A DNA stretch of 64,000 nucleotides from a bacterium. Its GTDB lineage: Bacteria; Electryoneota; RPQS01. The position numbers were made by a program, and so were the translations under genes. The notes under the pieces are model-generated. The model did not search any database and was not told where the DNA came from. It saw only the letters and a list, made by a program, of their open reading frames with translations. Within the stretch, counting starts at the first letter, position 1. Every line of letters starts with the position of its first letter. Shown one piece after another: positions 4,044-16,787 of this stretch. The DNA is taken from assembly GCA_023382385.1 (NCBI GenBank), contig JAHDVH010000006.1, positions 1 to 64,000 on the forward strand, read 5' to 3'.

Positions 4044-4123
4044 ACGGCGGTTCTGGAACATCCCTAAAGCAAATGAGGTATTTAGAGAGGTTGCCAGAGC
4101 AGAATAAACGTAGAGAGGGTATG

Positions 4124-4687
4124 ATGAAGAAGCTTTTGATTCTGATGCTTGCGCTGACCGTTGTTGCACTTCCCGCGCTGGCAGGTGAAGGTCACGACCA
4201 TGCGATAGTTAAGCCTGCAGCCGACGATGTCCAATTGGGCACTCTGCATGTGGCTAATAACGTCGTGTCGCTGCATGACGGCCAGAAGACCGCTTTGTGC
4301 GCCTGTGGATCGAACTTTGACGTTACTGAGAAGTCACCGTCTTTTAGCTTTAACGGTGGGACATACTATCTTTGTGGCGAAGGCTGCAAGGCGAAAATTG
4401 AAGCGATGGACGAGGAGACAAAAGCGGGGGAAATGCCGGGACTCCAGAAGGCAGTGCTGACTTCGGAGCATCTGATGTCCAACGAGATGATCAAGGACGG
4501 AAAGAAAATGGCGACCTGCGCATGCGGTCAGACGTTTGAAGTCAAGGCCGAGACTCCCAGGGTGATTGCCGACGGGATGTGCATGGGCGCCTGCTGTGGC
4601 GGCTGTGCCCAACATGTCCTGAAAGCAAGCGCAGAAGAGCGTGCGGCCATGATGAAGAAAGTCATGCACACAGATCATTCCCATTGA
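4124..4687 (+). CDS. Secreted Cys/His-rich putative metal-binding protein
   Basis: A 187-residue protein I cannot assign to a named family. An N-terminal signal peptide (MKKLLILMLALTVVALPALA) is followed by a His-rich start (GEGHDHA). Two similar halves then carry cysteines: ALCACG...YYLCGEGCKAKI and ATCACG...CMGACCGGCAQH. The tail ends HTDHSH. The CxCG plus CxxxC pattern resembles the small TRASH/YHS-type heavy-metal domains, so a periplasmic copper- or zinc-handling role is an inference. I chose ATG 4124 because GAGAGGG at 4113-4119 is well placed for it; ATG 4121 is immediately before it. It is monocistronic, with its own promoter at 4015 and terminator at 4707. Confidence 0.75.
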   Translation: MKKLLILMLALTVVALPALAGEGHDHAIVKPAADDVQLGTLHVANNVVSLHDGQKTALCACGSNFDVTEKSPSFSFNGGTYYLCGEGCKAKIEAMDEETKAGEMPGLQKAVLTSEHLMSNEMIKDGKKMATCACGQTFEVKAETPRVIADGMCMGACCGGCAQHVLKASAEERAAMMKKVMHTDHSH

Positions 4688-4780: not shown

Positions 4781-6469
4781 ATGAGACAGCTAATTCTGGT
4801 GTTTGCCCTGTGCTCGATTGTCATCTCGGCCGAGGCGAGTGGCCCTCTGGCTGGATTTCCATTGTCAAGCCACCCTTGGTACGAATTCATGGAGAGAAGG
4901 GAGACTTCGGGAAAGATTCGAATCCAATCGTCGACGCGACCCTATTCCGTCCTCGGGTCTTCAGGGTCTGACTTGATTGGCTTCGTCAGTGACAGTGGTT
5001 CCTATGACGACGAAGAGAAACTGACAAGGGAAGTCGGGCGCTTTGCGTGGGAGTTGAATTCGCACCTGCGGATCGCGCGTGGTGGCTATGCCCTGCCGGA
5101 ATTCACAGATACGACGAGTCACCAATATCCCAAGTGGCCGCGCGTTCTGGGAGTGTTATTCGAAGATGGCACCCACACATACACCTATGTAGCTCCCGAG
5201 GATTCCGTCGCCTTCAGCTTTCAGCCCGTCTATGGCCTTGAGATCATTGAAACTGACGATGAGCGAGGCAAAGTTTCACGATTCACCGGCGGCTTTCGTG
5301 TGACGGCCGGATATGGCCGACGGCTTTACGGCTTCGTGGATTTTCGCGATCACACGGAATCGGGGAATGGTCCGTATGATTCGCGGGAACGACTCTACGA
5401 GGATCGTTGGGCCGCCGCAGATCTGAAGGGTAACAGCAGTACGTCGTACGACGTCTCGGAATCGATGCTACAGTACTATGGCAGGCATCTCTCTGTTTCT
5501 GCGGGTCGGGGGCGACATAGATGGGGGCCAAGTTACTTCGGAGGATTGCTGCTGAATGACTTCGCTCCTCCATTCGATTACGCACGATTCGACTTGAATG
5601 TCTCACGAGTAAGCTACACATTCCTGCACGGCTTCCTACACTCCATGCAGACCGGAGACAGTTTATACGTGAATCCGGACGGTCGGCCGCGCACGTTGGG
5701 TGCAGAGAAGTATCTGTCCGCACAGCGAATCGAAGTTACGCCTCGTGACAATGTCCTGCTGGGATTTTCGCAGTCGGTCGTATACGGCGATCGTGGTCTG
5801 CAGTTGGGATATCTGACTCCGCTGAACTTTCTCTACAGCGTACAGCACTCGAATGACGACAAGGACAATCTGTTGCTGGCACTGGATGGCAAGTGGCGGC
5901 CGATTCCAGGGCTTAAGCTCTATGGTGAGCTGCTGCTCGACGACGTTTTGGTTGGAGATCTCTTCTCCGGCACGGGGAACAGCAAGAATGCCTATACTCT
6001 TGGAGTGCATGGAATGATCCCGAGCAACTTCTGGAATCACTTTGACGCTCGGTTCGAGTATACCAAGATTCGCCCGTTTGTATATTCGCACTTCTTCGAC
6101 GTGAACACATATTCGCACTGGACTTCTCCACTTGGCTTCACGCGCGAACCGAATAGTGAGTTTATGACTGCGCGGCTTGGTGGAAGCTTTTATCCGTTTT
6201 TCTGTTCGTTGACATACTCGCGTCAGAATCACGGCGCAAACACTGAAACAGAAAACGTCGGCGGATCGATTGACGCACCCAATTACGCCGGCAATGACAA
6301 GGAATTCCCGTTTCTCGCGGGCCTCTTTGAGCGAAGCGAGGAGTTGATCTTGAGTGCCCGCTACGAGATTCTGCCGAACCTGAATGTGATCGCACAAATC
6401 GCGGAAGTCAAGAAAAGCCGCGCGCAGGACCGCACAGAGTGGCGGGCGGGATTTAGTTGGAATCTCTAA
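4781..6469 (+). CDS. Outer-membrane beta-barrel, capsule assembly Wzi-like family
   Basis: 562 residues with an N-terminal signal peptide (cleavage near SAEASG). The body is rich in alternating aromatic/polar strands typical of an outer-membrane barrel and ends in an aromatic-rich final strand (FSWNL). The motif GRGRHRWGPSYFGGLLLND near residue 243 is typical of Wzi-like/capsule-assembly barrels, which help anchor surface polysaccharide. A polysaccharide-related role is inferred from family resemblance only, as no capsule genes lie nearby. The next gene starts 13 bases inside its 3' end, so the two are translationally coupled. Confidence 0.7.
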   Translation: MRQLILVFALCSIVISAEASGPLAGFPLSSHPWYEFMERRETSGKIRIQSSTRPYSVLGSSGSDLIGFVSDSGSYDDEEKLTREVGRFAWELNSHLRIARGGYALPEFTDTTSHQYPKWPRVLGVLFEDGTHTYTYVAPEDSVAFSFQPVYGLEIIETDDERGKVSRFTGGFRVTAGYGRRLYGFVDFRDHTESGNGPYDSRERLYEDRWAAADLKGNSSTSYDVSESMLQYYGRHLSVSAGRGRHRWGPSYFGGLLLNDFAPPFDYARFDLNVSRVSYTFLHGFLHSMQTGDSLYVNPDGRPRTLGAEKYLSAQRIEVTPRDNVLLGFSQSVVYGDRGLQLGYLTPLNFLYSVQHSNDDKDNLLLALDGKWRPIPGLKLYGELLLDDVLVGDLFSGTGNSKNAYTLGVHGMIPSNFWNHFDARFEYTKIRPFVYSHFFDVNTYSHWTSPLGFTREPNSEFMTARLGGSFYPFFCSLTYSRQNHGANTETENVGGSIDAPNYAGNDKEFPFLAGLFERSEELILSARYEILPNLNVIAQIAEVKKSRAQDRTEWRAGFSWNL

Positions 6470-7131
6470 CGGACTATCCGGCAACAACGCTAATCGTTGG
6501 CGCGTCAGGCGATTTAGTCGAAGTTGGCCGGGAACTTGGTGCCCGTGGCGAAAGAATTGCCTTGTTGTCCCGTGATGCTGCGATGCTCAATGGCTTCAGA
6601 GAGCGACTGGAGCATCGCGGGGTGGAGTGCGCTGTGATTGAAGCGGACGTGACAGAGTCGGAATCCGTTTTGACCGCTTTTATGCGTTTAGGCAAGTGGT
6701 CTGTGCGTTTGGATCGCATGATTTACAACGTAGGAGCAGTTTCCAATGAGCGTGCGGTGGAAGTCAGTGAGTCAGAATTGGCTCGTGTGATGGGAGTGAA
6801 TTTCTTCGGGTTCGTGAATTGTTTTCAGCTCGCATTGCCCATGTTTCAGCGACTGGGCCGTGGCCACGTTGTGACGATATCGAGAGTAACAGAGAGTGAC
6901 GAGAGTGCAGTGTCTGTTGCGTATGCGGCAAGCAGGGCATCACTCCAAATCTATGTCAACGCCTTGCGCAATGAGCTTGCCGAGAGACACATCGATTTCA
7001 CAGATGTTCTGCTTGGTCGAGGTCTTGTTGCAGGCGAGACTCAAGAATTGAGGTGCGAAGAAATTGTCGCTGGGTTGATGCGCGTAACGGAAGAGCGACC
7101 TGCGCGATTTATCATTGGCAAGATTGGTTAG
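6457..7131 (+). CDS. Short-chain dehydrogenase/reductase family protein with altered active site
   Basis: 224 residues with a Rossmann start TLIVGASGDL, NVGAVS (the NAG-type motif, residues 91-96), Ser142 and Tyr156 in the SDR positions. The catalytic YxxxK reads Y156-A-A-S-R160, so the lysine is arginine. The glycine-rich loop is also reduced (GASGDLVEVG). The enzyme may be divergent or may bind nucleotide without classical catalysis. It starts at TTG 6457, overlapping the preceding barrel gene by 13 bases; no better start is visible downstream before the Rossmann strand. It is followed 28 bases later by the selenoprotein gene. Confidence 0.8.
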   Translation: MESLTDYPATTLIVGASGDLVEVGRELGARGERIALLSRDAAMLNGFRERLEHRGVECAVIEADVTESESVLTAFMRLGKWSVRLDRMIYNVGAVSNERAVEVSESELARVMGVNFFGFVNCFQLALPMFQRLGRGHVVTISRVTESDESAVSVAYAASRASLQIYVNALRNELAERHIDFTDVLLGRGLVAGETQELRCEEIVAGLMRVTEERPARFIIGKIG

Positions 7132-7159
7132 GAAATATTGAATTAACAGAGTATTAGAG

Positions 7160-7381
7160 ATGAATTGGTCAATTGAGTACTGTGTAGTTTGAAACTACGG
7201 TCCCAAGGCGGTCAGTTTGGCCGAATTTGTTCAGAAACAAGGATTTCCTGCCCCAGAACTTATCAAGTCAGGAGGCGGTGCGTTCGAGATAAGAAGAGAC
7301 GGACGCCTCCTTTTCTCCAAGTTCAAAGAGCACCGTTTCCCAGATCCAGAGGAAGTGCTTAAATTACTTGCAAGTAAGTGA
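7160..7381 (+). CDS. SelW/Rdx-family selenoprotein (in-frame TGA = selenocysteine)
   Basis: A 73-residue protein whose codon 11, TGA at 7190-7192, is read here as selenocysteine. Before it the frame reads MNWSIEYCVV; after it NYGPKAVSLAEFVQKQGF. Later come the family-defining segments SGGGAFEIRRDGRLLFSK and HRFPDPEEVLKLLASK, ending at TGA 7379-7381. This gives the thioredoxin-like CxxU motif (Cys8, Sec11) of the SelW/SelT/SelH (Rdx) family. The frame stays open for 62 codons after the TGA with clear family pattern. Just downstream, CGGTC (7209-7213), loop AGTTT, GGCCG (7219-7223) forms a hairpin 21 bases past the TGA with G in the second loop position, as expected for a bacterial SECIS. ATG 7160 is the only start after an in-frame stop at 7139. 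The Shine-Dalgarno is weak. Likely a small redox protein. Confidence 0.85.
7209..7223 (+). promoter_or_regulatory. Candidate bacterial SECIS hairpin
   Basis: A stem of five pairs, CGGTC/GGCCG (one G-U), around loop AGTTT. The loop starts 21 bases after the TGA at 7190-7192. Known bacterial SECIS elements have the apical loop roughly 16-37 bases downstream, with G among the first two loop bases. Both conditions hold. SelB binding is inferred. Confidence 0.6.
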
Positions 7382-7424
7382 AACCATCGGCACCTGTGAT
7401 TCTCAAGAAATGTGTCAGGAGCAA

Positions 7425-7453
7425 TTGACAAGTCCTCTCTTGAGCAATATATT
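7425..7453 (+). promoter_or_regulatory. Housekeeping promoter for 7573
   Basis: TTGACA (7425-7430), 17 bases, TATATT (7448-7453). The predicted start is near 7460, with a leader of about 110 bases. It begins just after the selenoprotein gene, so 7573 is a separate unit. Confidence 0.8.
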
Positions 7454-7572
7454 GTGTTTGATGGCGTGTGAAGCACACATTACGAAGTTTTATAACCTTT
7501 CGCGGGTCGTTGTAGATCGATTAGGAACAGAAGGTTAACCCCAAATCACTCCGTTCTTCAAGTAGGATGACC

Positions 7573-9210
7573 ATGCAGTTGGTAACCACTTTTCGGGTGC
7601 TGGTGTTTGTTGCCTTAGCCTCCGTGGCTTCGGCAGGGGTGATGTATGTTCCTGCAGGCCCAGTAAGCGGTAAATGGAGTGGCGGTGACTCAGTCGTCGT
7701 TGCATCCGGAGCATATGTCCCTCAAGGCGAAGAGCTTGCAATTGAACCCGGTGTTCGAGCGTTCTTTGAAGGGTTGGGACGCTTTGAGGTTCAGGGACGC
7801 CTCGTCATTCGCGGGGTCGCCGATGACCCTGTGATCATCTACTGCGTGAATGGTTGGCGCGGGATGCGCTTCTCCGGCAGTCCGGTCAACAACGTATTGC
7901 AATACGTGCATTTCTCGCCACAGGCCGGGTTGGCACGACAGGCAATTGAAGTGAACGGCATGGCCGGCTCGAAATTGACGATTGAGAATTGCGATGTCAG
8001 CGCGAATAACGGCTGTCTGCGGGTAAACGGCGGCGAGCTGTCTGCACTTGACAATCATTTCACGACGCACGGACTGGCCTCTAAAGTTGTCGAGCTGTCA
8101 GCGCTGCATGGACAGATCTCGCCGGACTGTGAATATGCGCCAGGCAACATTTTTCGCGGAAACTTCATCAAGGCAAGTGTGGCTGGAGCAAATCCGGGTG
8201 AACCACACGATCCGTTGTCTATGACCACCGGGTTGTTAGTGGATCAGTCCACAAACATCTGCTTGTCGGAAAACGACATCGTGGTAATCGCTCCGTTTAT
8301 CGTTGTGGGCGCGCGATTCCTGAATCGCCCGACCGCAGGAGCGCAGATTTGGAGAATGCATCAGTTTGTGATTTATTCCGAAAGCACGACAGAGACGGCG
8401 CTCGGAATCGTCAATGAAGTAGACGGGGACCTCGAAGTCACCAAGTCAACGCTTGCTGTAAGGGGAAGCGGCGGCTATATCTCGACGTGCTATTTTGTGT
8501 CACGTACTGCTCACATACTTGTGAATTCCAGCACTGCAGTTTTGGGTAGCGAGCGCGATGTGTATTTTAACACCAGCGGCGTGGGCCAGATAGATGCGGA
8601 CTATGTGATCAAGTGGGCGATCGATGAACCGAGTTTGGACGACATCACTGGCGATACTGTGCCCGGCGCAGCGGACGAATTCTACCATCTCAATAACAAT
8701 CCCAATATTCGGGAAGGGGATTCGGTCTGGACTGTTAATCCGTTGTTTGCAATGATCGGAGACTGGCGGAACTGGAACAGCAGCGATGATATTCGCAGGT
8801 TCTTTGGTTTGACGCAGGCTTCTCCGTGTATCGATCGCGGGGACCCGCAACGCGGTCAGGACCCTGATCTTACGCGTTGGGATATCGGGCACGGCTATTA
8901 TGACCAGAGTACGTCATCCGCTGATCCACTGCCCGGAATAGTCGAAAGTTCACGTTTGCTGGCGGCCTATCCGAATCCGTTCAATCCAGCAACGGTTTTG
9001 CCAATCGAGGTTGCAAGGCCGGGGATTCTTCGTGTCATCGTATGGGACATCTTGGGTCGTGTGGTCCAGCAGCGCGAGATAGCTGTCTACCAGCCCGGCT
9101 TGCAAAACGTGCATTTTAACGGTGAATCCCTGGCATCAGGGATGTATCTGGCTCAAGCGGAGTTTGATGGGAGAGTCTTGGGGAGCCAGCGATTAGTCCT
9201 TATTAAGTAG
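7573..9210 (+). CDS. Secreted right-handed beta-helix protein with C-terminal sorting domain
   Basis: 545 residues. The signal peptide (MQLVTTFRVLVFVALASVASA) is followed by a segment typical of secreted beta-helix proteins of FCB bacteria: a 'produce/allow a long-lived value' start (YVPAGPVSGKWSGGDSVVVA), EPGVRAFF, then repeats (FEVQGRLVIRG, LTIENCDVSANN). The last ~85 residues hold YPNPFNPATVLPIEV...VWDILGRVV...LASGMYLA, a FlgD-like/type IX secretion sorting domain. Export through the outer membrane by a type IX-like route is inferred. ATG 7573 is preferred over ATG 7567 because AGGA at 7564-7567 is five bases upstream of it. Own promoter at 7425 and terminator at 9230. Confidence 0.8.
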   Translation: MQLVTTFRVLVFVALASVASAGVMYVPAGPVSGKWSGGDSVVVASGAYVPQGEELAIEPGVRAFFEGLGRFEVQGRLVIRGVADDPVIIYCVNGWRGMRFSGSPVNNVLQYVHFSPQAGLARQAIEVNGMAGSKLTIENCDVSANNGCLRVNGGELSALDNHFTTHGLASKVVELSALHGQISPDCEYAPGNIFRGNFIKASVAGANPGEPHDPLSMTTGLLVDQSTNICLSENDIVVIAPFIVVGARFLNRPTAGAQIWRMHQFVIYSESTTETALGIVNEVDGDLEVTKSTLAVRGSGGYISTCYFVSRTAHILVNSSTAVLGSERDVYFNTSGVGQIDADYVIKWAIDEPSLDDITGDTVPGAADEFYHLNNNPNIREGDSVWTVNPLFAMIGDWRNWNSSDDIRRFFGLTQASPCIDRGDPQRGQDPDLTRWDIGHGYYDQSTSSADPLPGIVESSRLLAAYPNPFNPATVLPIEVARPGILRVIVWDILGRVVQQREIAVYQPGLQNVHFNGESLASGMYLAQAEFDGRVLGSQRLVLIK

Positions 9211-15197: not shown

Positions 15198-16787
15198 ATG
15201 AAAAAAACCTGGTCAATCGGAAATGTATCCACTTTGCTGGTCATCGCTGCAATTCTTGTTGTGGTGAACTTGATCGGTATGAGGCTGTTTGCCCGTGCCG
15301 ACCTGACCGAGCAATCCATCTACACATTGAGCGACGCGTCGCGTCGCGTGGTCGGCGGCCTTCAGGACCGACTGACCGTGAAGGCGTACTTTACCAAGGA
15401 TCTGCCGCCGCCGTACAATGCAAACTCACGGTACGTGCGCGATATTCTGGAAGACTATCGCACCTATGGTCGCGGCAATTTCCATTACGAGTTTGTTGAT
15501 CCGGCGGATGAAGCTGAGCTTGAAAAGGAAGCTCAGCAGTATCGAGTGCAGCCGGCGCAGGTGAACGTCATGGAGAAAGACGCGCTGCAGTTGAAGCGCG
15601 TTTATATGGGCCTTGTGCTGATCTACGGGGACAAGCACGAAACTATCCCGCTCGTGCAATCCGTCGAGAATTTCGAATACGAAATGACTTCGACAATTAA
15701 GCGGCTGGTAGCAGAGAAATTGCCGAAGGTTGGTTTCTTGACGGGCTTCGGGTCACCGGAGCTAAGTGATGCGTTGCGCACGATCTCGACTGGTCTGTCC
15801 AAACATTTTGAAGTTGTTCCGATCAGCACAAAGTCGGGAGCCGAGTTGATCCCGGAGGATGTCAACGTCCTGTGCGTCGTTCAACCAAAGGAGCCGTTTG
15901 ACGACTGGACAAAGTTTGTCATCGATCAGTTTATCATGCGCGGCGGCAGCGTTGGATGGTTTATCAACAAAGTGAATGGCGATGCCTCCGCCTCGCAAGC
16001 GTCCGACATTCCACTTGATATTGACGATTGGACACGCCGCTACGGGTTCACCATTGCAAACAATCTCGTTTTGGATGCCAATGGCGCGATGATCAACATC
16101 CAGCGTCAGCAGGGCATGTTTATCATGACAAATCTGGTGCGCTATCCCGCGTTCCCTGAAGTTGTCAACTTCAATGACAAGAGTCCGATCACGAAAGGCT
16201 TGAGCACAGCTACCCTGTTCTTCCCGAGTTCCGTAGATACCGTCGCGCCTTCTGAAGGTTCGGTCGAAACCGTGCCGCTGATGTGGTCTTCAGAGTTCAC
16301 GATGCTTCAGGTCGGGCAGTTCGACATTTCGCCGGACACGAGGCGCGAACGAGCGCAGTTCTCCGGCGGTAAGAAGATGCTGAGCGTCGCGTTGCAGGGA
16401 ACGTTCCCCTCTTATTTCAGAGGCAGAAGTGTTCCCGCGCCGGCAGATGGAGTCTCGATGGCTCCTGCACTAAACATTTTAACGGAAAGCTCCAATGCCC
16501 GCATGGTTGTTGTCGGGGATGGCAATTTCCTTCAGGGACAATATATGCAGCAGGGCGGACCGAATCTCGTATTGTTCCTCAATATGATCGACTGGCTTTC
16601 TCAGGATACAGACTTGCTTGCAATTCGGTCTCGTGAAGCCGCCGTTCGTCCGCTGGATCCGAACATCACGGATGAGACAAAACAGCGGGTGAAGCTGGCG
16701 AATCTGATCGGTCCGCCGGCACTTGTGCTATTGATCGGCGTTTGGCGATGGAATCGCCGCCGTAATCGGAAAGAGGTGACGCTATGA
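15198..16787 (+). CDS. GldG-like ABC auxiliary membrane protein
   Basis: 529 residues. An N-terminal membrane helix (about 12-31, VSTLLVIAAILVVVNLIGM) precedes a large extracytoplasmic domain starting with the typical LTEQSIYTLSDASRRVV, and a second helix sits near the C terminus (ALVLLIGVWRW) before a basic tail. This is the ABC_transp_aux/GldG arrangement. Its stop overlaps the start of the next gene (ATGA at 16784-16787). Confidence 0.9.
   Translation: MKKTWSIGNVSTLLVIAAILVVVNLIGMRLFARADLTEQSIYTLSDASRRVVGGLQDRLTVKAYFTKDLPPPYNANSRYVRDILEDYRTYGRGNFHYEFVDPADEAELEKEAQQYRVQPAQVNVMEKDALQLKRVYMGLVLIYGDKHETIPLVQSVENFEYEMTSTIKRLVAEKLPKVGFLTGFGSPELSDALRTISTGLSKHFEVVPISTKSGAELIPEDVNVLCVVQPKEPFDDWTKFVIDQFIMRGGSVGWFINKVNGDASASQASDIPLDIDDWTRRYGFTIANNLVLDANGAMINIQRQQGMFIMTNLVRYPAFPEVVNFNDKSPITKGLSTATLFFPSSVDTVAPSEGSVETVPLMWSSEFTMLQVGQFDISPDTRRERAQFSGGKKMLSVALQGTFPSYFRGRSVPAPADGVSMAPALNILTESSNARMVVVGDGNFLQGQYMQQGGPNLVLFLNMIDWLSQDTDLLAIRSREAAVRPLDPNITDETKQRVKLANLIGPPALVLLIGVWRWNRRRNRKEVTL

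Follow-up and report, generated by a model that had tools for sequence, protein, structure and literature searches.

Does the short plus-strand frame at 7160-7381 encode a protein across the TGA codon that interrupts it, and is this TGA read as selenocysteine (Sec)? We addressed this question in the 64,000-nucleotide stretch of DNA shown above (hereafter the window) and in its source genome, an assembly of 2.9 Mb that is 98% complete. Our analysis indicated that 7160-7381 is almost certainly the gene of a SelW-like selenoprotein of the Rdx family, in which UGA is read as Sec by means of SelB and a downstream hairpin. A preliminary description of this DNA had proposed a SelW/Rdx selenoprotein at this place. 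The proposal was supported overall, and only the distance of the hairpin needed correction.

The interrupted frame and its protein family

Reading from ATG 7160, we found TGA as codon 11 (7190-7192), followed by 62 more sense codons up to the stop codon TGA 7379-7381. Both the frame and the residues quoted for it were present as the preliminary description had claimed. With the TGA read as Sec, the product of the selW-like gene has 73 residues (MNWSIEYCVVUNYGPKAVSLAEFVQKQGFPAPELIKSGGGAFEIRRDGRLLFSKFKEHRFPDPEEVLKLLASK). When the in-frame stretch upstream of ATG 7160 was inspected, no further ATG, GTG or TTG start was found in it. The ribosome-binding site in front of this ATG seems weaker than those of the relatives, which counts against the gene.

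The redox site of the protein is CVVU. Its first residue, Cys8, is encoded by TGT at 7181-7183 (+), two valines follow, and its second redox residue, U11, is encoded by the TGA at 7190-7192 (+). Among 39 genomes sampled from the phylum, 17 contain an Rdx gene, and in the alignment of these 17 genes the TGT codon of Cys8 and the U11 column are both invariant. This agrees with the earlier reading of Cys8-x-x-TGA as a CxxU motif.

With Cys replacing Sec, the protein scored 53.8 bits against Pfam Rdx (PF10262; cut-off 22.6; E = 2.3e-14) and 53.7 against TIGR02174 (cut-off 34.2), and the Cys-x-x-Sec/Cys motif is present near its N-terminus (C8-V-V-U11). The Rdx homology expected downstream of the TGA, which had been set as a point of possible refutation, was borne out by these scores. 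A six-frame search of the source genome with Pfam Rdx gave a single match, and this match is the SelW-like gene with the TGA inside it (E = 2.6e-11). The best-scoring NCBIfam model was NF041051 (SelTWH_Campy); because the score of 76.3 bits is below the equivalog cut-off of 88 bits, the protein is not a Campylobacter SelTWH equivalog by NCBI's rule. All 17 members of the alignment matched the same two NCBIfam models. By sequence, the protein also matches the Rdx structures 2fa8 (Atu0228), 3dex (SAV_2001) and 2ljk (human C17orf37), which places it in the same family. We take these three proteins to be Cys forms, whereas the second redox residue is here encoded by TGA.

The hairpin and the conservation of the TGA

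A bacterial SECIS-type hairpin lies at 7209-7223 on the plus strand. Its six pairs (CGGUCA with UGGCCG) join 7209-7214 to 7218-7223 around the loop GUU (7215-7217), and the loop begins 22 nt past the TGA. The preliminary description had placed a hairpin with a loop G at 21 nt after the TGA. The hairpin and its loop G were confirmed, but the distance was not: the stem starts at 16 nt, and 21 nt is the position of the five-base loop (AGUUU) in a five-pair version of the structure. Published rules for bSECIS elements call for a loop of 3-9 nt with G in one of its first two positions, a stem of 4-16 pairs, a UGA-to-loop distance of 16-37 nt and an MFE of at most -7.5 (PMC13188914). Our hairpin agrees with all of them (loop of 3 nt, G first, 6 pairs, 22 nt, -8.6 kcal/mol).

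The folding energy of the single sequence was ordinary in relation to shuffles (z = 0.33), so the claim for the hairpin rests on the comparison between relatives. Over the 17 sequences, 99.0% of the cells were paired (shuffle mean 88.3), nine cells had compensatory changes on both sides (shuffle mean 2.2), and the covariation score was 0.346 (shuffle mean 0.130). Each of the three values was reached by none of 500 shuffles. In slid versions of the hairpin, pairing never exceeded about 43%. At the second pair, GC, CG, AU and UA are all represented, and the A-U pair that closes the six-pair stem is A-U or G-U in all 17 sequences. The first loop base is an invariant G, although its codon encodes Ser, Gly or Arg; where it encodes Ser, the codon is always AGT and never TCN. 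When the protein was held fixed and synonymous codons were drawn at random, an equally good hairpin appeared in 5-14% of the draws for each of the 17, and these values cannot be freely multiplied because the sequences are related. The relatives with Cys at residue 11 form 3 or 4 of the six pairs.

This structure could be explained in another way, namely that translation usually stops at the TGA, that a regulatory role falls to the 10-residue peptide or the stem-loop, and that the Rdx part is made conditionally (for example, under a good selenium supply). Insertion of Sec competes with termination in general, and the hairpin also fits a loose terminator pattern. However, its tail AATTTGTTCA is no clean U run, and its loop G and its pairing obey the SECIS rules. 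The protein after the TGA also behaves as a selected one. Its dN/dS was 0.07, 0.17 and 0.24 against three relatives, with the reservation that Nei-Gojobori estimates are rough where dS exceeds 1 and that a fourth pair had saturated dS. These ratios indicate purifying selection on the part of the gene that follows the TGA. We therefore rejected the regulatory stop as a highly improbable explanation.

The TGA could also be a Cys codon (TGC or TGT) changed by mutation or sequencing error, and the gene would then be dead. Such a change needs one base only, and draft assemblies have errors. However, the same TGA was found throughout the lineage. In the order, Rdx genes occur in 11 of 13 genomes, with one TGA in each of the 11 genes; in the phylum sample, exactly one TGA was found in each of the 17. 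The 17 genes belong to separate genomes of three families, and their TGA falls in one alignment column, residue 11, even where a protein shares as little as 42% identity with the one encoded at 7160-7381. Together with the selection on the frame and residues past the TGA, this conservation across separate genomes led us to reject a pseudogene or sequencing error, to which we give even less credence than to the regulatory stop. The Cys homologs that had been anticipated at residue 11 do exist. The codon at this position is TGC or TGT in five relatives (from Nitrospira, Nitrospirales, Verrucomicrobiales and an uncultured bacterium), in a comparison made up of five loci from another collection, for which the scan of named genomes omits near relatives.

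Decoding of UGA in the source genome

The preliminary description had held that the organism must carry selA, selB, selC and selD, and that their absence would speak against a selenoprotein; all four were found in the genome. Three of them are clustered within about 16 kb: selA (C1:236547-237638, E = 1.1e-124), selB (C1:230132-231958, E = 3.7e-100) and the tRNA-Sec gene selC (C1:221551-221645, 57.8 bits), which ARAGORN reports as SeC with anticodon tca (UCA). SelB has a GTPase domain, a SelB beta-barrel and a C-terminal SelB winged helix; in characterised SelB proteins, the C-terminal winged helix binds SECIS hairpins. The fourth gene, selD (G000:C3:99826-100740, equal to L010:1501-2415, minus strand), has an in-frame TGA of its own at SCAGU, and a strong hairpin with the loop GGU follows it (z = -2.21). 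selD is itself read through this TGA, which is a separate line of evidence for Sec decoding of UGA in this organism. A genome-wide reassignment of TGA (e.g., to Trp), with no part for selenocysteine, would also leave the frame open whichever residue TGA encodes, but it is the least probable of all the explanations and was rejected, since TGA is an ordinary stop in this genome, ending the selW-like gene itself and other genes of the window such as 15198-16787, which would otherwise run into the next gene, and since homologs carry Cys at the TGA site and the genome has the full Sec machinery, including a tRNA-Sec with the UCA anticodon.

By analogy with known bacterial systems, the ribosome would initiate at ATG 7160 and arrive at UGA 7190. 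SelB, bound to the hairpin with its GUU loop downstream, would then bring Sec-tRNA(Sec), and the UGA would be decoded as selenocysteine. The outcome would be a thioredoxin-like protein with CVVU as its active site, and the same analogy suggests that such a protein probably carries out thiol/selenol redox chemistry.

In the phylum sample, selA was above the cut-off in 34 of 39 genomes. Because SelA occurs almost throughout the phylum, finding it alongside Rdx says little when taken alone. Among the 17 Rdx-bearing genomes, selA was absent solely in G012 (88% complete), which is most simply explained by an assembly gap. Two selA matches were observed in G022-G027, G037 and G038, and in most of them both are full length.

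The selenoproteins identified in the source genome were SelD and SelW only. No formate dehydrogenase alpha subunit (FdhA) was above the family cut-off in this genome, so the sel system seems to serve other proteins. The HesB-like gene of the genome, which was searched for a Sec form, has no TGA.

Known SelW proteins and the gene neighbourhood

SelW-like selenoproteins of bacteria have been described since 2005. Among the selenoproteins of the Sargasso Sea, the SelW-like CxxU family outnumbered all others (PMC1088965). Very few or no Cys versions have been found in Sec-containing bacteria (PMC1794560), and the Sec-only Rdx genes of the present phylum follow this pattern. The protein encoded at 7160-7381 resembles those described in the two studies in being a small Rdx protein with CxxU, Sec at the second position and a bSECIS just past the UGA; it differs from them in its host lineage and in the dehydrogenase gene that often lies directly upstream. 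It is also similar to Campylobacter SelW in length (73 residues here, 80 aa in C. jejuni) and in a UGA that would be read by tRNA-Sec. For C. jejuni SelW (CJnc60), Ribo-seq and proteomics have confirmed translation beyond the UGA (PMC11955535).

In view of these precedents, the gene joins a known kind and is well supported within it. It is real but ordinary, a solid new case of a bacterial selenoprotein type that is well known. The preliminary description had called it hidden; it is so only in the way of bacterial selenoproteins at large, which annotation often overlooks. The same happened in Campylobacter and other epsilonproteobacteria, where standard annotation missed the SelW genes completely (PMC4607533). 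SelW-type genes are easily lost in annotation. Two features are new: the host lineage, whose Rdx proteins, as far as found, are all Sec forms, and a conserved neighbourhood that often includes a dehydrogenase gene just upstream.

This dehydrogenase gene (6457-7131, plus strand; Pfam adh_short) is of the short-chain type. It is separated from selW by a gap of 28 bp, and the two genes are probably on the same transcript. Of ten relatives from the order, six have a homolog as the gene immediately preceding selW, and in L024, L025, L026 and L027 no homolog was found beside selW. In nine of the ten, the Wzi-like outer-membrane gene (4781-6469) is likewise conserved on the upstream side, and the downstream 547-residue protein (7567-9210) has a homolog in all ten, in one of them only over the C-terminal 81 residues. 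The arrangement of Wzi-like gene, short-chain dehydrogenase, selW and large secreted-type protein (window 4781-9210) is kept across the order. In f5, the other family with SelW, none of these neighbours (Wzi-like, dehydrogenase or 547-residue protein) was found in the flanks examined.

The conserved dehydrogenase neighbourhood is a lead on the function of bacterial SelW. SelW could be an obligate selenoprotein in this lineage and the dedicated redox partner of the upstream short-chain dehydrogenase. We consider this proposal unlikely; if true, the partnership would give a bacterial SelW a role at the level of a pathway.

Two other proteins of this region deserve mention. The protein encoded at 7567-9210 has a C-terminal region of the sorting-signal type (YPNPFNPAT), which is no more than a hint that the organism belongs to the FCB group. 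At 4073-4687 of the window lies a gene for a 204-residue secreted-type protein without a Pfam match, which is rich in Cys and His, has repeated CACG motifs and may bind metal.
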